From a virus, in IMG/VR virus record IMGVR_UViG_3300031351_000020, positions 1-24,046 of that record: a DNA stretch of 24,046 nt, one strand, 5' to 3'. Both the position numbers and the translations under genes were made by a program. Below are positions 1 to 24,046 of this stretch, piece by piece (the stretch's first letter is position 1; each line of letters starts with the position of its first letter). Under the pieces are notes generated by a model. That model had not been told where the DNA came from. It ran no database searches and saw only the letters and a program-made list of their open reading frames with translations.

Positions 1-793
1 AAATATCGTAAACGCCATCATGCGATCCAGAATCATCCCAATCAATGCAGCATTGATCGACTTCGTCTTCGTTTAATCCGGCAGAATAAATTCTAAAATT
101 CATCCCATCCCACGTAGGCCACTCAATCCCCTCGCTAGGATATATAATATTGTTATCGTAAAGATAGAGGAGATTCAAGTTAGTCAATCCTGCCAAAGGC
201 GAGATATCGCTGATACTATTGTTGTTAAGGTAAATATGTGTCAGATTGATCAATCCCGCCAAAGGCGAGATATCAACAATGTTATTATTATGACATAAAA
301 AATAGTTTAAATTTATCAATTCTGCTATAAATGAGATGTCAACAATATTATTATAATTAATCGAAAAATATTTTAAATTTATCAATTCTGCTATAAATGA
401 GATGTCAACAATAAAATTAGTATTGGCTGAAAGATGAGAAACTTTATAAAAATCACCATAAACTTTTATCGTCCACGTTCCTGCATTATATTCATGATTG
501 ACATTAACACCACCCGTCACTAGCACAAACTTCTCAAATATAGAACCATCACCCCAATCAACCAATATATTTCCACTCACACCTTTCCATATCGACGCAA
601 AAGATATTTTCGAATGAGTTATTGATACATACTTATTTTCACATAAAATACCGCCAGAATACACACGATTGCCTGGTGCGGAACCATCGAGTAAAACACC
701 CCCACTGTAGACTCGCTTTCCCGGTAATCCTCGTCCGTCGATCAGGACACCGCCAGAATACACAGAGGGTCGTTTTGCGCCTGACGTACTCAT
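1..793 (-). CDS. Leucine-rich-repeat phage surface/tail-tip protein (partial, runs off left edge)
   Basis: This open frame starts at ATG 793, overlapping the TAA stop of the upstream gene by one base (TAATG), and has no stop before base 1, so 264 codons are visible. Three parts can be read. Residues 11-54 hold three copies of a VYSGG(V/I)L module of about 16-17 residues. Residues 60-115 form a surface-protein-like domain with WGDGS near 80-84 and HEYNAGTWTIKVYG at 100-113, as found before LRRs in BspA-type proteins. Residues 128-215 are four 22-residue leucine-rich repeats with IVDIS(F/P)(I/L)AxL cores, of the internalin/LRR_4 type. A DGVYD motif follows near the edge. The LRR DNA is far more AT-rich than the rest of the window. 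As last visible gene of the late operon it is probably displayed at the tail tip for binding; that role is inference. A carried host-interaction protein is the alternative. Confidence 0.8.
   Translation of the reverse strand, partial: MSTSGAKRPSVYSGGVLIDGRGLPGKRVYSGGVLLDGSAPGNRVYSGGILCENKYVSITHSKISFASIWKGVSGNILVDWGDGSIFEKFVLVTGGVNVNHEYNAGTWTIKVYGDFYKVSHLSANTNFIVDISFIAELINLKYFSINYNNIVDISFIAELINLNYFLCHNNNIVDISPLAGLINLTHIYLNNNSISDISPLAGLTNLNLLYLYDNNIIYPSEGIEWPTWDGMNFRIYSAGLNEDEVDQCCIDWDDSGSHDGVYDI
128..390 (-). repeat. 66-bp tandem repeats encoding 22-residue leucine-rich repeats
   Basis: Four consecutive 66-bp units encode the LRRs. A 41-bp block is identical at 306-346 and 372-412, exactly one period apart. 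The two units nearer the left edge (around 182-280) resemble each other but differ from this pair at third positions and in the S-P-L-A-G core. Identity at DNA level in the first two units suggests a recent duplication. The limits given cover the repeat core approximately. Confidence 0.8.
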
Positions 794-4288: not shown

Positions 4289-5038
4289 TCATCGTATATC
4301 CCGCCATGGGTCCATCCATGGCTTTGTCCCACCGGCCGTCATGGTCGATTTCTTTGCGTATTCGGAATGCCTTATCCATCCTTCGCTCGGCTTGGCCCGG
4401 GCCTCGAATTTTTCATCAATCAATGGCACTCCGCGCTTTGCCCATTTCTTGTCCAATCCATGCTCGGCGAGCAGCTTGAAGCAACACACAGATATCTGAA
4501 AATCGGACAGAAACACGATGGGGAACATGGCAGATAGCGCTATCTCGGCGGCCCTGCGATTGATCATGTACCCCATGAGAGTTCGTGACAGCCAGACGCG
4601 ATTTTCATCTTTGACACGCAGCCGGTCCCCTGGGTGGTCCGCCGAGCACAGATAGAGCATGTCATAGTTTTTCGGCGGGCTGATATTGGAGATATTCATT
4701 CCTTTAACGGTCGGTTCCACGTCATCTTCTAGGATTATGCACCATTCATCGTTTGTCGATAAAAACGTTTTTAGAGCATCACGGTGACCCATATTGCAGC
4801 CCACGGCAGCAGGGGACAACCGGCTGTGTTCGTGCAACACATTATCATCTACCAATTTTGCCCGAGCGTCCGGACGCCATATCGAGCGTCCCATATCGTC
4901 ATACTCCCCTGGCTCCCCCCATAACGCGATTCCATCAACTCCAGATACCCGGACAAGCGTATTCCGCTCGAAAGCCGCCTGCATCGCGCGTCTACGATCT
5001 TGGGAGCGGTCTAAATTAATGTAATAAGCTCTCATCAT
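4289..5038 (-). CDS. Glycosyltransferase family 25 (LPS-type) protein, 249 aa
   Basis: The N-terminus MMRAYYINLDRSQDRRRAM followed by RVSGVDG matches the opening of GT25 enzymes. AVGCNMGHRDALK at about 78-90 and CIILEDDVEP at 100-109 match their conserved central region; the EDD acts as the acidic nucleotide-sugar/metal site in this family. Such enzymes transfer galactose or related sugars to lipooligosaccharide or protein in the cytoplasm. The length is close to the family's usual 200-260 residues, and the active-site motif looks intact. The start overlaps the fibre gene stop (ATGA); an ATG three bases later is possible. Lying between a fibre and the lysis-like cassette, it could modify host surface sugar or glycosylate virion proteins. 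The substrate is unknown. Confidence 0.85.
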   Translation of the reverse strand: MMRAYYINLDRSQDRRRAMQAAFERNTLVRVSGVDGIALWGEPGEYDDMGRSIWRPDARAKLVDDNVLHEHSRLSPAAVGCNMGHRDALKTFLSTNDEWCIILEDDVEPTVKGMNISNISPPKNYDMLYLCSADHPGDRLRVKDENRVWLSRTLMGYMINRRAAEIALSAMFPIVFLSDFQISVCCFKLLAEHGLDKKWAKRGVPLIDEKFEARAKPSEGWIRHSEYAKKSTMTAGGTKPWMDPWRDIR

Positions 5039-6387
5039 CCCCCCGTCCCCGATACGTAGAAATCAGTATGTAACTGCAAACCGGCTCTGACGTGCACTAA
5101 CCAATTTATGGTGGTAAACGGCGATGCGTGTCCTATAACCTCAATCTCAACAACGTTATCGGTGTCGTCTACTTGTATCCCCCAAGAACCTAGTGTCTCC
5201 CCATCTCCACGAATCTGAATTGTCTCTAATTTGCTCTGGATCATATAGGCGTTAAAATCCGGTTCTGTTCTCATCACTACTATCGGAAATCTATACCACG
5301 CAAATCCCTCTTTAGCTCCAGCTCCTGCCTGGTCTGTAGAAATCAATAATTCTACAATATAGGTCTGTATACATTCGTCGGGACACCACAATGGAGAATC
5401 GCTATCAGACGCGTTGAATTTCATAATAGTATTGGTATCATCGGTCGTTCTCGCCTGTAGGATCATGCCATCCATCCCCTGAGAGCTATAATCCCCGTTC
5501 AGCTGCCCACCGGTGAAATGTTCGGCGCCGGGCCACACCGATGACGCCCCTACACCACGCGCCTCAGCATGGGCATTGGAGACCGTGCTCGTAAGACCGT
5601 ATACGCGGCTATAAGCGGCGGAAGCGAGGCAACCGTACCCCATGGCATACTGACAATTTGCATCCCCTTGAACAGTGTTGTCGTAGCCCGATACGTCGTG
5701 AAAGTTCCCTTCACCAGATATACTATTGAATGCTCCTATGACCCGACTATAAGAAGTGTCATCTAAATCATTCCCATCCCCTAGTACGAAGGAACTGTTC
5801 ACAACCTCTAATGTGTTTTTAGCACCGCTTCCGTTAATCACAAGAGATGTCCATGTCGACGTAATTGTCGGTTCATTTAGCAACAAATTATTGTTCGTTG
5901 TGTCCCAAAAAAGACCGGCCTCCCCGGTGGGAGCGCTCCCGTCAGAAAACAGGATATATCCTGCCGTCAAGGCATTCATATCCTGGAGCGACGTATATTC
6001 GGTATCGGTCAAATGGAGATATTCCCCGACAGCACCACCTTGGAGGCCTGTCAATGAGTTATGTTCAGACACTCCACCGATGGGGCCGTCCGAGAGCAGA
6101 GCATTGAGCTCAGCGACCGTCATCAGCTTCCCGGTCACGTTCCCCGCGCTGTCATGTCGCAAAAGACCTGCCTCCGATACCGTGTCCGCCCCGATGAGCT
6201 GGAGAGTATCGATCCGTGCAGGTTTATCCTTCGCGAGCCATTTTTGAACATTCCCCGCCGCGTCTTTTCCTCCATACATCCGATATCCGAGGTCGGCATC
6301 ATTGGCCGGCTCGACGGCGATTTGGGCCGGGTTGATGGCCGCGATGTAGTCGTTTATCCTGAAAATTCTTGCATCTGTTGTAGCCAC
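5035..6387 (-). CDS. Tail fibre-like protein, 450 aa
   Basis: The start is GTG 6387, four bases after AGGAGG. The N-terminal region (about 1-60) is a likely baseplate-attachment part. Around 104-130 it has EHNSLTGLQGG followed by GEYLHLTDTEYTSL, a motif typical of phage tail fibres. Residues about 200-280 contain repeated short G-(A/Y)-x-N/S units such as VIGAFNSISGEGNF and AMGYGCLASAAYSRVYG, reminiscent of YadA-like left-handed beta-roll heads, which suggests a trimer. The C-terminal 110 residues look like a separate beta-rich tip. It directly follows the Mu gp48-like baseplate gene, the usual place for the fibre. No recognisable chaperone follows it. Receptor binding is inferred. Confidence 0.75.
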   Translation of the reverse strand: MATTDARIFRINDYIAAINPAQIAVEPANDADLGYRMYGGKDAAGNVQKWLAKDKPARIDTLQLIGADTVSEAGLLRHDSAGNVTGKLMTVAELNALLSDGPIGGVSEHNSLTGLQGGAVGEYLHLTDTEYTSLQDMNALTAGYILFSDGSAPTGEAGLFWDTTNNNLLLNEPTITSTWTSLVINGSGAKNTLEVVNSSFVLGDGNDLDDTSYSRVIGAFNSISGEGNFHDVSGYDNTVQGDANCQYAMGYGCLASAAYSRVYGLTSTVSNAHAEARGVGASSVWPGAEHFTGGQLNGDYSSQGMDGMILQARTTDDTNTIMKFNASDSDSPLWCPDECIQTYIVELLISTDQAGAGAKEGFAWYRFPIVVMRTEPDFNAYMIQSKLETIQIRGDGETLGSWGIQVDDTDNVVEIEVIGHASPFTTINWLVHVRAGLQLHTDFYVSGTGG

Positions 6388-10636: not shown

Positions 10637-11933
10637 TGCGCCTCCCCTTGGGGATGATAAAATACTCGTCCCCGCCGAGATCATTCGTGGCATAGAACAG
10701 GTCCAGGGTCTCCCATTCCGTGGTTCCGTACAGCTTGAAGCACAGATCCAACGGTGTGCGGTCCGACTCGATTTCCTTCGCCATCCTGGTTTTTGCCGTC
10801 AATGACGAGGTGATTAGCGCCGACATGGAGAGTGACACCAATTTTGTTAGGTCAAGGAGTCCACCACCGGTATCGATCGTACCGGCCCTGATGTCGGAAC
10901 CAGCGATCGCTGCGTAATTCGTGTCGTGCCAAGTTTCGTACCGATCGAGCAGATCGGCGAGCTCCTCGGCCTGCGCTATGAGGTCCTCGCGGGTCGTGAA
11001 TTGGTCGGTGGCCGCCGCCGCCAACTTGGCCATGTTCCCGATCGCTGTTTTTCCAAGCAGCTGATTGAGATGAAAATTATTAATTAAATCAGCGGTATAG
11101 GTCTGTCTTTCGGCCGTGTCGACACCGAACAACGACGCGGCATAGGCCCCGTAGGCCCGGAGCTTGTCCCGAGCAAGGTCCCGTGTCCGAGCCGGTTCAC
11201 CGAGCATGAGCTGAAACTGGTGAGCCATGGTCAAGGGCTGGCCGACGAGAAGATCGATCCCGCGGGAGATGCTATCGCCGATGGCGTCCACACCGCCTGT
11301 CACCGCATCCGTCACGCGCTGCGCCGTTGCCATGGCCGACTTGATCTTTTTGACCGCCGATTTTGCCCGCTCTCCGAATGATTCCGCGTCGCCAAGTGTG
11401 CTTGTGTCGAGTTTGTCGGAAAAATCGGCCGCCGCTGCGAACTGGAGACCGTCGAAGCTCTGGTCAAAATCGGAGATGCCGCCGAGCTGGAGCCCCGTGG
11501 TCTCGTACCACACTAGCGACACAATCGCCTCGCCGGCCCCACTCACGAAAGCATCGGTCCGCTCGATATCGCCGACCGGGACAACGTCGATAGGTCGCCG
11601 GTACTGAGGATGCGAAAGCACCCCGACTCCCGGCTCGAGCACCGCACGAATAAATGCCTGAGCTCGATCATCATACCCGCTACCGCTGAAAACGCACGCC
11701 AGCGGAAACCGGCCCGACGTGTGACCATTCGGCTGCACGTAGGTCCCGTCACCCACGGCATTTTCAAAAACAGCCGCCTTGGACGCATAGGCGCTGGACA
11801 CGTCGCCAAAATCAAACGGTATCCGGTCCCCGGCCGGCGACACGAAAACCGCTTTACCAGGTGGGATATACTTCTCACCGTCGAACGGTTGCGGCCCGAG
11901 AAAGGCGTTCTTGATGTCGTTGAATAGGCTCAC
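10620..11933 (-). CDS. DNA circulation/tail protein, Mu gpN (gp43)-like, 437 aa
   Basis: The start is GTG 11933, overlapping the tape measure stop as GTGA. The N-terminal 115 residues (GEKYIPPGKAVFVSPAGDRIPFDFGDVSS, then GRFPLACVFSGSGYDDRAQAFIRAVLEPGVGVLSHPQY in parts) match the DNA_circ_N family typified by Mu gpN. The middle is helical and alanine-rich. The C-terminus ends ATNDLGGDEYFIIPKGRRIVWYV, a LysM-partner-like ending frequent in this family. In Mu this protein is a tail or baseplate component that was named for a reported circularising activity on the injected DNA. It follows the tape measure and precedes gpP, as in Mu. Confidence 0.85.
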   Translation of the reverse strand: MSLFNDIKNAFLGPQPFDGEKYIPPGKAVFVSPAGDRIPFDFGDVSSAYASKAAVFENAVGDGTYVQPNGHTSGRFPLACVFSGSGYDDRAQAFIRAVLEPGVGVLSHPQYRRPIDVVPVGDIERTDAFVSGAGEAIVSLVWYETTGLQLGGISDFDQSFDGLQFAAAADFSDKLDTSTLGDAESFGERAKSAVKKIKSAMATAQRVTDAVTGGVDAIGDSISRGIDLLVGQPLTMAHQFQLMLGEPARTRDLARDKLRAYGAYAASLFGVDTAERQTYTADLINNFHLNQLLGKTAIGNMAKLAAAATDQFTTREDLIAQAEELADLLDRYETWHDTNYAAIAGSDIRAGTIDTGGGLLDLTKLVSLSMSALITSSLTAKTRMAKEIESDRTPLDLCFKLYGTTEWETLDLFYATNDLGGDEYFIIPKGRRIVWYV

Positions 11934-13648
11934 GGCATCGCCCCTGTGTGGACGAGTTTGAACCTGCGGCCACGGCCGCCCTTGGTCACCTCGGCCCGGC
12001 CGGTTTCGTCTTTCAGGGTGACTTCTGTTTCCTCACGCGCCACAGTCTCTGTTCTCGACGTTCGAACCTGTGGTCGGACGGCAGCCCCAGAAGCCGCCGC
12101 CGCAACCCGCGATGCTGCACCGCCACCTAACCCAGAAACAACCGGAACAGGAGGCGGACCAGGGGCTTTTGGGGTCTTTGGAATTTTTGGTTGATTCGGA
12201 ACCGGAGCTGGCGCGCCTCCCTCGTCCCCGCTGAAAAACCCGGCGATTTCTCGGATAGCGTCACCAATCGGACCAAGTTTGTCCAATATCCAATTGAGCG
12301 CTGAGCTCGCCGCCGTCTTGATCATATCCCACAACCTCAGGAACTTTTTCCCGGCCTCCTCCCATCGCCCCGTAAACAGGTCGACAAGCATCCCGATATA
12401 GGTTTTGACGAACTTGAAAACTGGCTCTACAACCGGCCGAATCTTCTCCCAGATACCGACGAAAAAGCCCTTTATCGCTTTGCCGGCCGCCGCGAATGCG
12501 TCGAAAATTTTGAACATGAAGGCGTCGATTTCATCTCTAAAAATCCAGATTGCAGCCATCGCCGCAGCGAACGCCACCACGATGAGCATAATTGGGTTGG
12601 CCATCATGATTGCGTTGAATACAGACATAACAGCTGAGACGGCCTTTACAGCTACGACGATTCCATAAAACGCCACGAGTAGTCCGCCGATTTTCTTCCC
12701 CCAATACAAGATCCGATCAAAGTTATCGGCTACGAGCTTGATGTACTTTTCAACTTTTGCCTTTATGAGATCCTTGTTGGCATTCACCCATTCGCGAGCC
12801 TTGGCAGCTATTTCTGTAAGGTATTCTGTAAGTTCTTTTAGTGTTGGTGCCAGCGCCTCGCCGAATGCCCCCGCAGTCAGTCCGACGTTGTCTTTCAGAG
12901 TTGAAATCTTACCGCTCAAAATCTCGGACGCGATTTTCATCCCCTTGTAAAAAATCCCACCTTCGCTGGTCATTCTCTTAAAAGCTTCCGTGATATCTTC
13001 TGTGGACACCTTCCCCGCGCTGATCGCTTTGAACATCTTGGAACCTTTTTTTTCAATAACGTCCCCGAGTGTATTAAAAATAGGCACCCCAGCCTCGGCG
13101 ATCATATTTAAAGACTCCATGTCGGCCTTGCCCTTCAGAAGTGCCTTATTATACCCCCTGACGATGGAGTCCATTTTCTGGGCATTTCCTCCAGCTGTAT
13201 CGCCAAGCATTCGTATTTTTTCGATAGTTCCAACGATATCACCGCCCATGTTAGGCAAGAGCTGTTTAGCGGCCCCTGCGAGCGTCTCAAATTGAAACGG
13301 CGTTGTAGCAGCCGTCTGATTCAACGCGTCAACCATCTCTTTTGCGCGCTTGGCGCTTTTCAAAAGTGGCGTAAATGCCGCCTGCGCGTCCTCCACTTTT
13401 GAAAACGCCCGCATGATACCGCCTATTGCAGTACCAAGAGCCACTGCGCCAGCAGCAGCAGCATAAAAACCAGCGCGAAGAGCACCACTTAACCTGGATG
13501 AAACTGCAGATACCTTTTGGTCCAGCCGCTTCATGGCCCTGGATGTTCGGTTCGCAAACCGTGTCACCCGCTGCTGAATTTTTCCTACCGTCCGCGACAC
13601 CTTGTCGACGGCACGAAATACCGTCCTGACTACGAGATCACTGGCCAT
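11930..13648 (-). CDS. Tail tape measure protein, 572 aa
   Basis: The frame starts at ATG 13648 with AGGTG five bases upstream. The N-terminal ~55 residues are basic and coiled. A hydrophobic segment lies at about 58-80 and a larger one at about 320-370 (LLVAFYGIVVAVKAV, then IMLIVVAFAAAMAAIWIF), as in tape measures that also enter the membrane. Residues 85-280 (DAQAAFTPLLKSAKRAKEMVDALNQTAATTPFQFE in parts, AGVPIFNTLGDVI) match the TMP core. The C-terminal ~90 residues are proline- and alanine-rich, then basic. At 572 residues it is short; using about 1.5 angstrom per residue the tail would be roughly 85 nm. Location between chaperone and gpN agrees with Mu. Confidence 0.9.
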   Translation of the reverse strand: MASDLVVRTVFRAVDKVSRTVGKIQQRVTRFANRTSRAMKRLDQKVSAVSSRLSGALRAGFYAAAAGAVALGTAIGGIMRAFSKVEDAQAAFTPLLKSAKRAKEMVDALNQTAATTPFQFETLAGAAKQLLPNMGGDIVGTIEKIRMLGDTAGGNAQKMDSIVRGYNKALLKGKADMESLNMIAEAGVPIFNTLGDVIEKKGSKMFKAISAGKVSTEDITEAFKRMTSEGGIFYKGMKIASEILSGKISTLKDNVGLTAGAFGEALAPTLKELTEYLTEIAAKAREWVNANKDLIKAKVEKYIKLVADNFDRILYWGKKIGGLLVAFYGIVVAVKAVSAVMSVFNAIMMANPIMLIVVAFAAAMAAIWIFRDEIDAFMFKIFDAFAAAGKAIKGFFVGIWEKIRPVVEPVFKFVKTYIGMLVDLFTGRWEEAGKKFLRLWDMIKTAASSALNWILDKLGPIGDAIREIAGFFSGDEGGAPAPVPNQPKIPKTPKAPGPPPVPVVSGLGGGAASRVAAAASGAAVRPQVRTSRTETVAREETEVTLKDETGRAEVTKGGRGRRFKLVHTGAMP

Positions 13649-13656
13649 CAGCGCAC

Positions 13657-13896
13657 CTATTTCTGAGGCTTCGTGTCGTGCTTGAGCTGTGACCTGATGC
13701 CCTCATAGTACCATTCGATCTCATCGAGAGTGAGCGTGCGCGGGTCTGGAAGACAGTTATAGGATATGCTGATCTGGAAAAACATCTCGGTGTACACGGC
13801 CAACCGCGTATGCCTTGGGTTTCCATCTCCATCGTATCCAAGCGAAACACTCCTTCCATCTCTTACCAGCAGCGGCGCCGTGATCTGCTCAAGCCA
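13657..13896 (-). CDS. Frameshift extension of tail assembly chaperone (T-like domain), about 79 aa
   Basis: Read in the +1 (equivalently -2) frame relative to the chaperone, this stretch gives WLEQITAPLLVRDG, HTRLAVYTEMFFQISISY and LTLDEIEWYYEGIRSQLKHD before a TAG at 13657-13659, eight bases upstream of the tape measure start. The last segment, with a helical E-W-Y-Y-E-G-I-R motif, is typical of the C-terminal (gpT-like) part of long tail chaperones. This frame is closed by TAG upstream at the CTAGAG around 13920 and has no ATG, GTG or TTG before the overlap, so it must be entered by frameshifting or by an internal start after its beginning. The fusion to the zero-frame product is inferred. 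Confidence 0.7.
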   Translation of the reverse strand, partial: WLEQITAPLLVRDGRSVSLGYDGDGNPRHTRLAVYTEMFFQISISYNCLPDPRTLTLDEIEWYYEGIRSQLKHDTKPQK

Positions 13897-14311
13897 GAAA
13901 AAGCGCGAACACCTCCATGGCCACCTCTAGATCCCTCCATTTTAGCTTGTAAAACAGCTGACTCGGCACCCCAGCGGCATCCGCCATCATGGCGATCATC
14001 TTCCCGTTTTCTGAATTTTTCTTGACCCGATCCGCGGCCCCGAGTATCGAACCTTTGGGCAACTGCGTGAATTTGATCTCTTCTGGCCCTTCAGGGAGAT
14101 CCGTATCAACAATCCTAGCCGCCGGTCTACCCTCGTCGTCCACTGTTACTCGGCCGCGCCGGATGAAATATTCAATTTCCCGCCTAGTGTCGGCGAGGTC
14201 CTTCGTGTTGTTCGCATCCCTTGGCCTCTCAAAATCGACTGCTGCGAACTCACAAAACCGCTCAAAATCTGCCGAAGCCGTCTCGGCATCCACTACAAAT
14301 TTCGTTGACAT
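13889..14311 (-). CDS. Tail assembly chaperone (Mu gp41-like), 140 aa, zero-frame product
   Basis: The start at ATG 14311 has AAGGCGG eight bases upstream; a GTG three codons earlier is less well placed. The sequence (TKFVVDAETASADFERFCEFAAVDFERP, PEEIKFTQLPKGSILGAADRVKKNSENGKMIAMM in parts) is acidic and helical as in chaperones encoded between tube and tape measure. These proteins coat the tape measure during tail assembly and are absent from the virion. The frame closes at a TGA four codons after a run of five T (minus strand), while another frame opens across the same place and continues almost to the tape measure start. A frameshifted longer product is therefore likely; it is listed separately. 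Confidence 0.75.
   Translation of the reverse strand: MSTKFVVDAETASADFERFCEFAAVDFERPRDANNTKDLADTRREIEYFIRRGRVTVDDEGRPAARIVDTDLPEGPEEIKFTQLPKGSILGAADRVKKNSENGKMIAMMADAAGVPSQLFYKLKWRDLEVAMEVFALFLA
13894..13903 (-). other. Candidate programmed frameshift site (run of five T)
   Basis: On the minus strand the chaperone reads GCG CTT TTT CTG GCT TGA. The five T occupy 13902-13898. A Phe tRNA on TTT (13900-13898) can re-pair perfectly two bases back (TTT) or one base forward (TTC), and either shift enters the downstream open frame. A -1 shift would not. Mu itself is reported to use a -2 shift in its homologous gene. The exact shift direction cannot be decided from sequence alone. Confidence 0.55.
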
Positions 14312-14332
14312 AACACACACCGCCTTTCAAAC

Positions 14333-14395: not shown

Positions 14396-14773
14396 CTAGA
14401 GCTTTTTCAACCGCCCCTCGCCGGCCAATTCAAATGACGCAGCGCCGTTGTTTAGCGAATAGGTGACTTCCCCTTCCGTCCCTCCGACACCGGAATAAAT
14501 GTTGTTGTCGGCCATCGTCACAGAGCATTCGACGTCCTCTGTGGAATCGTGGACATCATCCAGAAACTCGATGTCTCCACGGTAAGGGTCGACCTGAACC
14601 GTGATTCCGGTCGCCTTCCATCCTCCAACCTGTTTCCTCTTCCGGCTCGAACCATCCCCGTTAAAGAGACGCTCGTTGACCGTCGCGTTCGGCTGTAGTG
14701 TGACGTCAGCATCGGCAACGGCCTTGAATTCTCGTGTCGCTATGGACACAAATTTTGCAGGTCCACAAATCAT
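14396..14773 (-). CDS. Tail tube protein, Mu gpM-like, 125 aa
   Basis: The start at ATG 14773 has AGGAGG six bases upstream. The sequence shows VDPYRGDIEFLDDVHD at about 62-77, ADNNIYSGVGGTEGEV at about 87-102, and SLNNGAASFELAGEGRLKKL at the end, the pattern of the Mu gpM tail tube family (PF10618 type). It forms the inner tube through which DNA passes. Length is typical for the family (115-130 aa). It directly follows the sheath gene, as in Mu and P2. Confidence is high. Confidence 0.9.
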   Translation of the reverse strand: MICGPAKFVSIATREFKAVADADVTLQPNATVNERLFNGDGSSRKRKQVGGWKATGITVQVDPYRGDIEFLDDVHDSTEDVECSVTMADNNIYSGVGGTEGEVTYSLNNGAASFELAGEGRLKKL

Positions 14774-14786
14774 GATTCACCTCCTA

Positions 14787-16271
14787 TCAGGTACCGACGT
14801 GGAATCCGAAATCGAGATCGATGCTGATCACGTTGGCGTTGCCGGAGCATTTGAACACGAGCTTTCCGTTGAGCCGTTTCGGGTTGGCATCGTCGATGCT
14901 CATAGCGCTGTTCGCCTTCGCGAAGTCCGGATCCGAGATAATCGCGTCGTCCGCAGCCGCCTGAATGATCTTGTGGAGTGCCTCGGTACCGTCATGAGGC
15001 TTTTTCGCAGTCGGTTCCTTGACGGATTGCGTGTCCGGGACGAGGGGGGGGCCACCCTTCCATTCAACCGACCCGAACTCAAGCCCAACGTTATAAAGCA
15101 TCGTCGAAATTTTCTCGATATCGACATCGTACTTGTAGGCGGGGGGTTCCTCGCCGGTCGGATGGTAGCAGGTCACCACATCCGAAATCTCGACGTCACC
15201 GTCGACAACCTCAATCGTCGAGCATCCAGCGTCGAAAGCCGACTCGTTCTGGTTCGGGTCCCATTGGGTTGCATCCGCCGCCGGTGTGAGCCGTGGGCAT
15301 TTCAGGGCACCGTAATCGTGAGCCGGCACAGTGGCCGCCCGCTTCGCGATCCGTCGCACCTGGTCGGCCGCGATGACAATAGGCAGGTCGTTTGAACCCG
15401 GGTTTGTCAAGATGACATTCGTCCTATCCGATTTTCTGGCGTCAGTGACGTCAGTCACCGTCTCCAATGTGGCCTCGGCGCAACCGGTGTACACCCTCAG
15501 CGGCTTCCTGATCTGAGGAGTCCAGCGCCCTTCGTTGTAGGCCGCGAACTCATCCAGGATCGTGTCGTCGGTGTAATCGTTTCCGTTGACGACGTGCGAT
15601 TCCCAGACGCTGCCGATTTGGGCCAGCGCCGCCGTGATGGACGGCGTCCCGGTCCCACCTGTGATTTGGGTAGACACCGTGAGCGTGACATCCGCATCGT
15701 CAGGAGACAAAACAGCGAGATGAACACCGTTGCCGCTGGTTCCCTTCCAGCCAACCGTGAAAGCAAGCGTGGTAGTGCCGTCCGATGCAGTCCCTGGCAT
15801 CCCGACAACGCCGTTGATCGCCGCGATCGCTTTGGTAATGAACTGCGCCACCGTGTCATCTTTGACTAAGTTGATCGGCAATGATGGCCGATTATTGACC
15901 AGTACATAGTGGGTCTCGGATTTTGTGGCTGTGCCCGCTGGCGTGATTTCACCAGCTGCCGGATCTCCTGATGGCGCAGCCAACGGATAAATTGTCACCG
16001 GGATGTCACCGACACCGTCCCCGTTCGTCGGCAACAGTGATTCGACGGCCTGGTAGATCTGGCTGTCAAAGCCAAAAGCATTTCCAGCCTCGCCAGGCGA
16101 AAACACCCGTTTTTTTGTCGTGGCGTAGACCGTGCCATCTGCGCCCTGCGCAATGACCGGGATCCTCACCGGCCGGTATCGCGTCCCGGCCGCGCCAATC
16201 TGCTTGTAGCTGGTCTTGATCGCCAGCCCACGGGACCCGTGAGACTGCGGAAAAGCGGTTGATTCAACCAT
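14787..16271 (-). CDS. Tail sheath protein, Mu gpL-like, 494 aa
   Basis: The start ATG 16271 has GGAGG seven bases upstream and lies two bases after the previous stop. The N-terminus (SHGSRGLAIKTSYKQIGAAGTRYRPVRIPVIAQ in parts) and the stretch PGEAGNAFGFDSQIYQAVESLLPTNGDG at about 68-95 match Mu gpL. C-terminal parts such as CYHPTGEEPP and DVEISDVVTCYHP fit the conserved sheath core that polymerises around the tube. Mid-protein segments of beta-rich repeats (GDPAAGEITPAG, GTSGNGVHLAV) are the usual variable surface domain. This gene shows the tail is contractile. Confidence 0.92.
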   Translation of the reverse strand: MVESTAFPQSHGSRGLAIKTSYKQIGAAGTRYRPVRIPVIAQGADGTVYATTKKRVFSPGEAGNAFGFDSQIYQAVESLLPTNGDGVGDIPVTIYPLAAPSGDPAAGEITPAGTATKSETHYVLVNNRPSLPINLVKDDTVAQFITKAIAAINGVVGMPGTASDGTTTLAFTVGWKGTSGNGVHLAVLSPDDADVTLTVSTQITGGTGTPSITAALAQIGSVWESHVVNGNDYTDDTILDEFAAYNEGRWTPQIRKPLRVYTGCAEATLETVTDVTDARKSDRTNVILTNPGSNDLPIVIAADQVRRIAKRAATVPAHDYGALKCPRLTPAADATQWDPNQNESAFDAGCSTIEVVDGDVEISDVVTCYHPTGEEPPAYKYDVDIEKISTMLYNVGLEFGSVEWKGGPPLVPDTQSVKEPTAKKPHDGTEALHKIIQAAADDAIISDPDFAKANSAMSIDDANPKRLNGKLVFKCSGNANVISIDLDFGFHVGT

Positions 16272-20801: not shown

Positions 20802-22422
20802 TTTTTTCCCTTTCCTCAAGCGCGACCAAATATCCCAAGGCCCTGGCCACCGCCGGCGCGCCAAATTCCTTCTCGGCTCGCAAAATCGGCAGTATCGCTT
20901 CCAACTTCAGCTCGTTTTCTTTCCTGAGCTGGCGAACGTTTTTGTAAAAATCGGAGCCGTTGATTTCCCGAGCGGCCCTTTGATTCGTGGTCCACCCCTC
21001 GTCCACAGCGGACTTGAAGCCATTGGCCCGCTTCACCGGATCGGTCGAGGGCTTAACGGTCCCAGTCCACTCGGTCAGGATCCAAGCGCGCTGGATGTCG
21101 TACTTTGTGGCGTCGGCGACGGCCTCCAAAAACCCAACCGCCTCGATCTTCCCCAGGAGCACCTCGGACAAAAACCAGTCCTCGTAGACGTGGTTGTTAT
21201 TCTCTTCGCCGAGACGGCATCGCTCCCGCTTCGTGACGACCTCCCACTCGTTATTAGCCGCCTGGCTCGCCGAGTAGTTTTTGTTGAACGACAGCAGAAG
21301 TACCTCGGGGGGGATCTCGAGGGCCCAGGCCAGCCCCACCATGATCGCCGCCTCGAACGGACCGAAATTTACGTCAGCACCGCTGATCGCATACGAAACC
21401 GGCTCTTCGCCCTCTTGGAGCCGCTCCATGAAAAATCCAGGAAGCACCTCGACCATTTTCACTGGATTCGCCGTGCCCGAGTTTTCACTGGCAGTTACAT
21501 CTTTTTTGCGCTGGGCACCACCCTGGAGAGGCAAGGACCCAGTCTTCCCGGAATTTTTGATGTAGCCGACGATTAGCGAGTTGACGTATGCCTTGCGCTG
21601 CGCGCTGTCACGGTATCGGTCGATCTCGGACAGTGGCTGGATCGCGATGGAGAGCAGCGGTTCACCGCGGATACCATCCTCGCGCTTGTCGTATCCGTAT
21701 ACAAGCCAAGCTTGGAGCCGCCCGGTTTTCAGACCGTTGGCGGGGATGTACTCATATTCAAAAAGGTGCTCAGCGTCAGTAGCTGGTTTCTGTACGTAGA
21801 AGCCGAGGTGGGCGCCGTTGCCGTCCAGGTGGACACCGTCGACGATCTTTCTGCTGGTGTCGTCAATCGGTGGGGATTGTACCCGATTTCCGGAGATGAT
21901 CTGCACCCGCGGAAGATGCGTGACCGGATCCTGGCGCAGCACGACGAGACAATCACCGTCGATCAGCGCCTCCCGGTAGATGTCCCGCTGGAGTGCCCCG
22001 AACGTACGGCGCTTTTTGATGTCGCACAGCCCAGGGGATTTGGACCATAGCGCGAACCGGTTACCGATGACCTCGGACCACTCTTGGAGCGAATCCTCTG
22101 AAAGTCCCAGCGTCCCCTCATCGGGGGACGGGACAACCTCGAGCCCGGACCCGACGATCGCCGTCACGAGTCTTCGAATAATGCCGCGGGCGTATGAGTT
22201 GATCCGAAACAGGCGGGCTGAACGATTGCGCAATGTCCAGTAGTCGAGCTCGTCGAGCTCGTCGAGCATCCAGGACACGCCACCATAGAATTTGGTCCCA
22301 TCGTAGGGACCCATCGGGGAGGAGTATTCTGTTTCTTGTGCGACCGCCGGCGCCGGCGACGACTCGGGCCACGTCCAATCATCCTCTGGCTCGGTCACTG
22401 TTTTTTGAAATGGCCAGCCCAT
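20773..22422 (-). CDS. Portal protein, lambda gpB-like, 549 aa
   Basis: The start ATG 22422 shares its A with the stop of the gpW-like gene (TGATG); a reading from 22467 would lie inside that gene. Signature parts of the lambda-type portal family (PF05136) include LDELDYWTLRNRSARLFRIN, ARGIIRRLVTAIVGSGLEVVP, RDIYREALIDGDCLVVLRQDP, QIISGNRVQSP and, further on, NFGPFEAAIMVGLAWALEIPPEVLLLSFNKNYSASQAA in parts. This protein forms the dodecameric ring at the vertex for DNA entry and exit. Length is close to lambda gpB (533 aa). No sign of truncation. Confidence 0.93.
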   Translation of the reverse strand: MGWPFQKTVTEPEDDWTWPESSPAPAVAQETEYSSPMGPYDGTKFYGGVSWMLDELDELDYWTLRNRSARLFRINSYARGIIRRLVTAIVGSGLEVVPSPDEGTLGLSEDSLQEWSEVIGNRFALWSKSPGLCDIKKRRTFGALQRDIYREALIDGDCLVVLRQDPVTHLPRVQIISGNRVQSPPIDDTSRKIVDGVHLDGNGAHLGFYVQKPATDAEHLFEYEYIPANGLKTGRLQAWLVYGYDKREDGIRGEPLLSIAIQPLSEIDRYRDSAQRKAYVNSLIVGYIKNSGKTGSLPLQGGAQRKKDVTASENSGTANPVKMVEVLPGFFMERLQEGEEPVSYAISGADVNFGPFEAAIMVGLAWALEIPPEVLLLSFNKNYSASQAANNEWEVVTKRERCRLGEENNNHVYEDWFLSEVLLGKIEAVGFLEAVADATKYDIQRAWILTEWTGTVKPSTDPVKRANGFKSAVDEGWTTNQRAAREINGSDFYKNVRQLRKENELKLEAILPILRAEKEFGAPAVARALGYLVALEEREKNVVDATARN

Positions 22423-22667
22423 CAGCACACATTCACGGCGACGCCACCATTCAGGCGCATCTCCCAAAATTCAAGTTGAGCATATGCCCAATCTAGTTGA
22501 CTTTTCAGTGTGGTTAAATCATTACGAGTTACGGATAGTTGCGTCTGTCCCGTGTTGACAGAAAATGACCTTTTATTGCCCACAGTCAGGGAGGAAATCG
22601 CCGATTCGAATGACTCAATCAGGGTTTGAAAATAGGAAATCCGCGCTGCGATGAATGTGGAATCCAT
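22422..22667 (-). CDS. gpW-like head completion protein, 81 aa
   Basis: The start ATG 22667 lies about a dozen bases after AAAGGTG. The protein has a helical N-terminus (MDSTFIAARISYFQTLIESF), a short hairpin region (KRSFSVNTGQTQLSVTRND), and a second helix (LTTLKSQLDWAYAQLEFWEMRL). This helix-hairpin-helix layout and the place between terminase and portal are those of lambda gpW and DUF6148-type proteins, which close the portal after packaging. Its first 12 residues are identical to those of the chimeric terminase ORF upstream, because they lie inside the duplicated segment. Confidence 0.75.
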   Translation of the reverse strand: MDSTFIAARISYFQTLIESFESAISSLTVGNKRSFSVNTGQTQLSVTRNDLTTLKSQLDWAYAQLEFWEMRLNGGVAVNVC

Positions 22668-22871
22668 ATAGGTAGTAAAACACCTTTACATGCTATATGC
22701 AAACTTTACTGTGCATTTATTTCATACTAAGTTGTAATTATTGCGTATTTGAACCTTTTTGCGTAGCTAAGATTCACGCTTTGGCATGAACTTCGACGAA
22801 ACCCCATTCCCAAAAACGCCGATTTGGGAATGAACGTTATTTGCTGTCAGAAAAGTACAGTTTTTGCTCTT
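22630..22871. repeat. Direct repeat, copy 1 (terminase end, gap, gpW-like start)
   Basis: This 242-bp block matches 23804-24046 with three substitutions and one single-base indel. It holds the last 11 terminase codons, the intergenic gap and the first codons of the gpW-like gene. All differences lie in the gap. The spacing of the copies is 1175 bp. Confidence 0.95.
22668..22836 (-). promoter_or_regulatory. AT-rich intergenic gap with hairpin and weak promoter-like sequence
   Basis: This is the longest gene-free stretch of the window. Directly after the terminase stop, arms at 22805-22814 and 22823-22832 form a perfect ten-base-pair stem with an eight-base loop; no T run follows, so termination is uncertain. 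Further along, TTCAAA (22753-22748) and TAGTAT (22729-22724) with an 18-base spacer resemble a weak sigma-70 promoter reading toward the gpW-like gene. No tRNA or small ORF is evident. Confidence 0.35.
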
Positions 22872-23841
22872 TGAGCAAATTCCAGAACCACGGCCAGTCC
22901 ACAGCGTCGACCTCTAAATGCTGGACGCACATCATCCAGGCAAGAATTTCCACTTGGGCGTGACCGTAGACCATAAGATCCCAAAGTTCCTGTGGCGCCC
23001 CACCTGGTCGATGCCAAAACCACTCCTCTTGTCCGTTCGGGAGGGTCTTTTTCCTTTTCACCTCCCTGGTGAGCTCGCGTAGCTCGTCGTCGGTTGTGTC
23101 GACCGGGGCGTTGAACGTGTATTCGTCCTGTAACCCTTCGTCCGGGCGCCAGTTTCGGCGCAGAACAGGGGCGAGTCGGTCCTTGTAGTGGTTGACCGTG
23201 ATTCTGTAGCCAGTCGTCCCGCTTTGGGTCGTGAATTCGGCGAACTCTTTGATCCGCTGCCCACGGGCCGGCTTGTCGTCGCCCATGATGGGGTAGACAC
23301 CAGATGAATACTGAGAGCAAAACTCCACCACCGTGGAGCTAGACCACCTGGCATCCACGAACGTCAGGGCCAGTTGATAAACCTTCCTGTCGTTGGCCTT
23401 CCACGCACGCTCATCGATCATCTTCCCGAGCTCCACCCATGCCATCGACTCAATCACCTCGCACCCGGCCTCAGTGTCGTCCTCGATGCGGATGTAATCG
23501 ATTAGCCAACACCGCATTCCCGCCGTCCACCCCCAGACCGCCACCGCCAAATTCCCTTTGTGCACGTCGACCGTGCAGGTCAGTAGCAGGATTTCGGACG
23601 GGCAGTATTTCTCGATTTCCGTGTTTGGGATCTCGTTTTTTCGATACCATGGCCTGCGATGGGCGGACGCCATCGAGAATGATACCTTCCCGCTGTAGAT
23701 CTGAATCGACTTTGTCAAAAAGTTATTGTACCAGCGTTGAAGAGCTGAAAAATCCTTGACCTTAACTTCTGGCCAAGCGTCGAGCTCATCCATTAGCATC
23801 AACAAATAGGAAATCCGCGCTGCGATGAATGTGGAATCCAT
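22837..23841 (-). CDS. Chimeric ORF: gpW-like N-terminus fused to GpA-type terminase nuclease domain, 334 aa
   Basis: From ATG 23841 the first 12 residues (MDSTFIAARISY) equal the start of the gpW-like protein. The reading frame then passes without interruption into a terminase large subunit lacking the N-terminal ATPase domain. LLLTCTVDVHKGNLAVAVWGW at about 85-105 (in parts), TFVDARWSSSTVVEFC near 160-174, and QELWDLMVYGHAQVEIL near the end fit the GpA nuclease region; Asp92, Asp163 and the late Asp are candidate metal ligands. Walker A and B are absent. Full GpA-type terminases are about 600-700 residues. It is either an in-frame product of a 1175-bp tandem duplication, with the intact gene beyond the right edge, or an assembly junction. 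Confidence 0.75.
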   Translation of the reverse strand: MDSTFIAARISYLLMLMDELDAWPEVKVKDFSALQRWYNNFLTKSIQIYSGKVSFSMASAHRRPWYRKNEIPNTEIEKYCPSEILLLTCTVDVHKGNLAVAVWGWTAGMRCWLIDYIRIEDDTEAGCEVIESMAWVELGKMIDERAWKANDRKVYQLALTFVDARWSSSTVVEFCSQYSSGVYPIMGDDKPARGQRIKEFAEFTTQSGTTGYRITVNHYKDRLAPVLRRNWRPDEGLQDEYTFNAPVDTTDDELRELTREVKRKKTLPNGQEEWFWHRPGGAPQELWDLMVYGHAQVEILAWMMCVQHLEVDAVDWPWFWNLLKEQKLYFSDSK

Positions 23842-24046
23842 AATAGGTAGTAAAACACCTTTACATGCTATATGCAAGTTTTACTGTGCATTTATTTCAT
23901 ACTAAGTTGTAATTATTGTGTATTTGAACCTTTTTGCGTAGCTAAGATTCACGCTTTGGCATGAACTTCGACGAAACCCCATTCCCAAAAACGCCGATTT
24001 GGGAATGAACGTTATTTGCTGTCAGAAAAGTACAGTTTTTGCTCTT
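23804..24046. repeat. Direct repeat, copy 2 (reaches window edge)
   Basis: This 243-bp block repeats 22630-22871. It may continue beyond the window, so its true length is unknown. Its left boundary is the point where the gpW-like start meets the terminase reading frame, at a shared TCCTATTT-type sequence on the minus strand. Confidence 0.95.
24012..24046 (-). CDS. Terminase large subunit, extreme C-terminus of a second copy (partial)
   Basis: The last bases of the window encode EQKLYFSDSK and a TAA stop, identical to the end of the chimeric terminase ORF. Only this tail is visible; the rest lies beyond the right edge. By analogy with lambda order the full terminase gene should be there. Whether it is intact cannot be told. 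Confidence 0.6.
   Translation of the reverse strand, partial: EQKLYFSDSK

Follow-up and report, generated by a model that had tools for sequence, protein, structure and literature searches.

Between the tail tube gene and the tape measure gene of a virus contig, a frame without a usable start codon overlaps the end of a tail assembly chaperone gene, in a register that the -1 frameshift customary for such pairs does not reach. Is this frame translated as an extension of the chaperone, and, if so, in which direction do ribosomes slip? The DNA considered here, called the window below, is the whole stretch of 24,046 nucleotides of IMG/VR record IMGVR_UViG_3300031351_000020 (positions 1 to 24,046). 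Its structural genes lie on the minus strand and comprise those for portal, protease, sheath, tube, chaperone, tape measure, baseplate hub and further tail proteins. The features that matter for the question are the following.

14787..16271, minus strand: tail sheath gene (contractile tail), basis of the tree; phrog_165 tail sheath, E=4.8e-70
14396..14773, minus strand: tail tube gene, upstream of the chaperone; phrog_4699 tail tube, E=9e-19
13889..14311, minus strand: tail assembly chaperone (G/gp41/E-like), 0-frame product of 140 aa; ATG at 14311, TGA at 13889-13891
13910..13916, minus strand: Shine-Dalgarno-like sequence GGAGGTG, 9 nt upstream of UUU, which may stimulate slipping backward
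13897..13903, minus strand: putative slippery site CTT_TTT_C (N_CUU_UUU_C), with the T5 run at 13898-13902 and the UUU codon at 13898-13900
13657..13926, minus strand: T-like frame, stop to stop, with TAG at 13657-13659; a homologous T frame occurs in 246 loci
11930..13648, minus strand: tape measure protein gene; PHROGs best E=8.3e-33, Pfam TMP_3 E=4.7e-22

A chaperone overlapped by a frame without a start

The 140-residue protein matches the PHROGs family phrog_4648 over its full length (E=3.2e-16, residues 4-139 on profile positions 3-143 of 143), a match that places it in a family otherwise using -1; phrog_166, annotated as 'tail protein', is a weaker match (E=0.006). The Pfam family Phage_TAC_7 ('E, or 41 or 14'; P2 E, Mu 41) scores 19.2 bits with the window protein, under the cut-off of 25, and is matched by six of 11 members of the chaperone family (E up to 0.1; best E=8.7e-7). 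The predicted fold (pLDDT 91) retrieves, with Foldseek, the 'Tape measure chaperone' of Burkholderia phage Mica (E=4.5e-3, prob 1.00), and the T part is predicted as a compact domain (pLDDT 87.6); comparison with PDB structures gave no informative match for the chaperone (best Z 2.2) or for the T domain (best Z 3.0). The setting recalls the G/GT pair of phage lambda, where a chaperone gene likewise precedes the tape measure gene and is overlapped by a T frame reached by frameshift, in that case a -1 shift (PMC5009743).

Other features of the contig deserve mention. A GAAAGGC element, conserved in a TTTGAAAGGC-like context in most members of the clade described below, lies before the chaperone ATG (about 14320-14330, minus strand) and is probably its ribosome-binding site. 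A glycosyltransferase family 25 gene sits amid the tail genes (4289-5038, minus strand; Pfam E=2e-10). Downstream of them a leucine-rich-repeat protein (2-793, minus strand; Pfam LRR_4 E=4.2e-21), preceded by VYSGGVL-type repeats, runs off the contig and is possibly a tail-tip or host-contact protein. Finally, a near-perfect direct repeat of 243 nt (22630-22871 and 23804-24046), whose second copy forms the right end of the contig, joins the start of an open reading frame at 22422-22667 (MDSTFIAARISY...) to a truncated gene for the terminase large subunit gpA (22837-23877), and suggests a misjoin in the assembly at this end of the contig.

At the junction the window reads GAG GTG TTC GCG CTT TTT CTG GCT TGA. 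The T frame overlaps the chaperone by 35 nt, in the +1/-2 register, and its own stop lies 8 nt before the start of the tape measure gene. Its first ATG, GTG or TTG is a TTG 88 nt past the chaperone stop, at residue 42 of 89, and the frame is therefore without a usable start of its own. In the overlap UUU is the sole codon whose tRNA re-pairs fully after a shift, and it does so for +1 as well as for -2, according to a single-codon re-pairing table. An earlier note made from these letters had described just this arrangement: a chaperone ending at TGA 13889, an open T frame with no start before the overlap, a required shift of +1 or -2 instead of the usual -1, and a T5 run at 13898-13902 fully re-pairing with Phe tRNA either way; each of these points was recovered here, on a strand that the note had not named. 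The T frame matches the family profile with E = 3e-26 (the window being among the sequences that built the profile). Together with the 246 loci and a register that recurs in 16 other contigs, this match puts the chaperone/T pair far beyond chance, and a chaperone-T fusion is very probably made by frameshift. Its predicted length is 218 aa if the shift is -2 and 217 aa if it is +1.

One clade departs from a -1 family

Relatives were gathered by sheath-based and T-based searches, which yielded 246 loci with a chaperone/T pair and 185 distinct junctions. Alignments were needed for this purpose, as scans of viral contigs with the chaperone, the T part or the sheath as single sequences returned no relatives; scanning with the sheath alignment of the wider clade added no further clade members. 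The register is -1 in 170 of the 185 distinct junctions. It is +1/-2 in the 15 others, the window included, which are spread over 17 contigs (the window, L017, L018, L019, L020, L022, L099, L100, L101, L102, L104, L105, L106, L149, L150, L157 and L171). Phages isolated on Vibrio, Shewanella, Aeromonas, Oceanospirillum, Pseudoalteromonas and Acinetobacter are all of the -1 type. Among them and others, the pairs of Vibrio phages VP16T and H188, Shewanella phage SppYZU01 and Aeromonas phage AeroV_348 have a homologous chaperone, T frame, sheath and tube in a gene order like that of the window, the chaperone/T pairs themselves being unannotated; in several related GenBank records that we examined, the T frame either carries no annotation or stands as a hypothetical gene of its own.

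The -1 relatives slip mostly at U_UUU_UUG-like sites, or at CUU_UUA and CUU_UUU, and at the same position as the window (CTTTTTTTGG, CTTTTTATGG, CTTTTAATGG or CTTTTTCTGG). They differ from it in needing -1 and in a tendency towards RNA structure downstream. The decamer CTTTTTCTGG is identical in three of them (L043, L067, L119) and in the +1/-2 clade of the window. Five relatives in the -1 register (L069, L168, L172, L220, L221) have no slip site of the usual TT-run kind at the chaperone end.

A tree of the sheath protein (IQ-TREE quick search, 102 rows) brings the 14 +1/-2 rows that it includes together in a single clade of 15, with an SH-aLRT value of 100. The only other member, L138, is in the -1 register and nested inside the clade, and two changes of state suffice on this tree; the simplest history is therefore one switch to +1/-2 followed by one reversal to -1. 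L157 and L171 were left off, their sheath sequence being too short: the nearest sheath and chaperone relatives of the former, and the nearest chaperone relatives of the latter, are clade members. The apparent reversal in L138 goes with a spacer, from the slip position to the conserved E-I-(T/S) of the T domain, that is 2 nt shorter than in L017 by hand count, a difference in length that changes the register. The end of the L138 chaperone (about 6341-6355) reads CTT TTT TAA, with the stop directly after CTT_TTT. A family that uses -1 thus contains a clade, made up of metagenomic contigs, in which the direction of the shift has switched while the slippery position stayed the same.

Between L101 and L150, which belong with L100 and L102 to one lineage of the clade, the T frame shows 20 synonymous and two non-synonymous codon changes, and 19 of the 22 base differences fall at third positions. 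In this lineage the T frame is under purifying selection, and so its T domain is both produced and put to use.

Back by two bases or forward by one

The account we prefer, with moderate confidence, has ribosomes shift frame in a programmed manner at GCG_CUU_UUU_CUG, most likely by -2. A small share of the ribosomes whose Phe tRNA sits on the UUU at 13898-13900 would slip back two bases on the T5 run, where the tRNA would re-pair with UUU at 13900-13902, so that ...ALF-FWLEQ... continues into the T frame. The 218-residue chaperone-T fusion would thus be produced beside an abundant 140-residue chaperone. Lambda G/GT serves as the model for its function: the chaperone part would coat the tape measure protein, and tail tube subunits would be recruited by the T part. 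The earlier note had held the mechanism open between +1 and -2; the evidence now leans towards -2 and does not settle the matter.

What speaks for a backward shift is first the T run itself. Re-pairing of UUU with UUU at the homologous position, as -2 requires, is available in 11 of the 15 distinct junctions, and 11 of 12 lineages retain the run before UUU, with CTT as the preceding codon in seven and TTT in four. In the sheath genes of the clade CTT accounts for 17% of the codons for Leu and TTT for 25% of those for Phe; the chance of CTT in seven lineages would be about 0.166^7 if these were independent, which in the statistical sense they are not. That the run is kept despite this low usage suggests that it is selected, as it should be if the shift is -2. 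Two other causes may contribute: a forward slip of two tRNAs could also explain the retention of CTT or TTT, and the retention may be partly inherited from the -1 ancestor. The second argument comes from the Shine-Dalgarno-like sequence. In the window, L017, L022 and L099, GGAGGTG or AAGGAGGTG stands 9 nt before UUU, with anti-SD matches of 7 to 9 nt, and none of 138 -1 relatives has a match of at least 6 nt; within the clade this sequence is limited to four of 12 lineages. Stimulators of this kind sit 3 nt away at +1 sites and 9-14 nt away at -1 sites (review, PMC5009743), so that the spacing of 9 nt fits backward shifts rather than +1. Taken together with the parallels in Mu and other viruses described below, these observations make the -2 direction moderately probable.

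The main competitor is a fusion made by +1, either by a P-site Phe tRNA moving from UUU to UUC or by Leu and Phe tRNAs both moving forward on CUU_UUU_C. We regard it as a real, less probable possibility. UUU to UUC is the only full re-pairing that every one of the 15 distinct junctions offers at a single homologous position. This holds also for the four, all from the single lineage of L100, L101, L102 and L150, in which the T run, the Mu-type run of five identical bases, is broken at that position (UUG_UUU_C). It was tempting to take this broken run as proof of +1. The idea was dropped when an alternative -2 site, G_GUU_UUC (GGUUUUC), was found 9 nt upstream in the same lineage. The predicted junction peptides, given for the L102 lineage, tell the two apart: SLVFSLFWLEQ for +1 on UUU_C, SLVFSVCFWLEQ for -2 at GUU_UUC. 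Furthermore all 15 distinct junctions read TTT CTG G and so have C after UUU; in the sheath genes of the clade CTG represents 63% of CTG plus TTG. The invariant C is not required by -2; it mildly favours +1, or reflects avoidance of a U_UUU_UUG site for -1.

A +1 shift nevertheless leaves much to be accounted for. When it involves the P-site tRNA alone it does not explain why CTT or TTT is retained before UUU, and the spacing of the Shine-Dalgarno-like sequence is unlike that of +1 sites. UUU followed by a pyrimidine is common in the genes of the window (44 of 98 UUU codons), so UUU_C is insufficient as a signal. In all 15 junctions CUG occupies the A site. It ranks second among the Leu codons used in the window and is not obviously slow; CGN, which PA-X-like sites favour at this place, is absent. 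The lack of downstream RNA structure seemed at first to argue for +1, with a mean z of about 0 in the clade and of about -1 in the -1 relatives (thinned sequence sets), and no difference between the two groups farther downstream. This argument was abandoned as non-deciding, given that the verified -2 site of phage Mu likewise has no structure. As an evolutionary scenario, a change of the clade from ancestral -1 to +1 on UUU_C, at an unmoved slippery position after a 2-nt change of the spacer, is, like the +1 shift itself, the less probable reading. Four contigs of the clade (L019, L020, L105, L106) read AAT TTT TTT CTG, which contains a U_UUU_UUU heptamer expected to promote -1 as well, and may thus make a third, short -1 product.

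Three further explanations fare much worse than a programmed shift in either direction. The T frame might be translated separately, by reinitiation or coupling near the chaperone stop, with no fusion being made: L017 and L099 do have an in-frame ATG overlapping the region of the chaperone stop with the Shine-Dalgarno-like sequence upstream, but at about 16 nt, which is far for initiation, while the first start codon of the frame in the window lies within the conserved domain and suitable starts are missing from most of the clade, all of which makes this route very improbable. Transcriptional slippage at the T run, giving messengers of altered length, seems more improbable still. A run of five T is short for polymerase slippage, and the lineage of L100, L101, L102 and L150 has no such run at the junction position. 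Least credible is a base-call or assembly error joining frames truly in the -1 relation, which the earlier note had named as an alternative: the window is a metagenome-type contig and its right-end repeat invites suspicion, but the +1/-2 register is conserved in its nearest relatives and in 16 other contigs, mostly from other assemblies, with comparable full sheaths only 50-61% identical to that of the window and so not copies of one error, which rules out a base-call error in the window.

Comparison with known frameshift sites

The closest parallel to the preferred -2 shift is found in phage Mu. Xu, Hendrix and Duda reportedly described in 2004 Mu gp41 together with its -2 frameshift product. 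The earlier note had mentioned this case, and the Mu record AF083977 does carry the annotation 'verified -2 translational frameshift'. Mu shares with the window the order sheath, tube, chaperone, T frame, tape measure and DNA circularization protein, and its T frame is likewise in the +1/-2 register, with an overlap of 35 nt. The only fully re-pairing codon in Mu is GGG in CGG_GGG_C (CGG_GGG_CGA), so that C-G5-C in Mu and C-T5-C in the window have the same X5 layout, with a run of G in place of T; a run of this type is present in 11 of 15 junctions, that of the window (CTT_TTT) included. The Mu site is, as in the clade, devoid of downstream structure (z 0.98 and -0.09). The two differ in that +1 re-pairing is impossible in Mu and possible in the window, and -2 is verified in Mu only, not in the clade of the window. 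Mu must moreover be taken as an analogy, as there is no detectable profile homology between the chaperone and Mu gp41 (hhalign probability 0.9%, E=0.06), apart from the weak Phage_TAC_7 link.

Viruses of eukaryotes offer precedents for both directions. For -2, the site CCUUUUU of TVV1 (PMC8953718) and the arterivirus site N_GUU_UUU (PMC6675879), in the form G_GUU_UUU, have the N_NUU_UUU pattern with re-pairing of UUU to UUU, like the window. TVV1 uses -2 and TVV2-5 use -1, a difference of direction within one virus genus as in the family of the window. These are, however, unrelated RNA viruses, and the arterivirus site needs trans-acting proteins. For +1, Influenza PA-X is made by a shift on UUU_C because tRNA-Phe pairs better with UUC; mass spectrometry proved the +1 direction there (PMC3498833). 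Its site UCC_UUU_CGU shares UUU_C, with the same re-pairing of UUU to UUC, with the window; it belongs to a eukaryotic virus and has CGU as the A-site codon, whereas the clade has CUG.

Direction as an evolving trait

That different tailed phages use -1, -2 or +1 was already known (PMC5009743), as was the difference between -2 and -1 among trichomonasviruses (PMC8953718). A search of the open-licence literature gave no report of frameshifting in the phrog_4648 family, nor of a switch of direction within a tail chaperone family. Should the shift be -2, the clade would reproduce the X5 anatomy of Mu on T instead of G. To our knowledge Mu would be the one other case of a -2 shift in a tail gene. 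Should it be +1, a UUU_C site of the PA-X type would be extended to a bacterial virus, on a C-T5-CTGG decamer that is read by -1 elsewhere in the family. In either case the T frame supplies a gene product missing from several related GenBank records. The direction of the shift is usually treated as a fixed property of the frameshift signal. Here the family forms a natural series, with 170 distinct junctions in -1, 15 in +1/-2 within one clade, and one reversal, and the sharing of one decamer across directions makes directly testable what, beyond the slippery bases, sets the direction.
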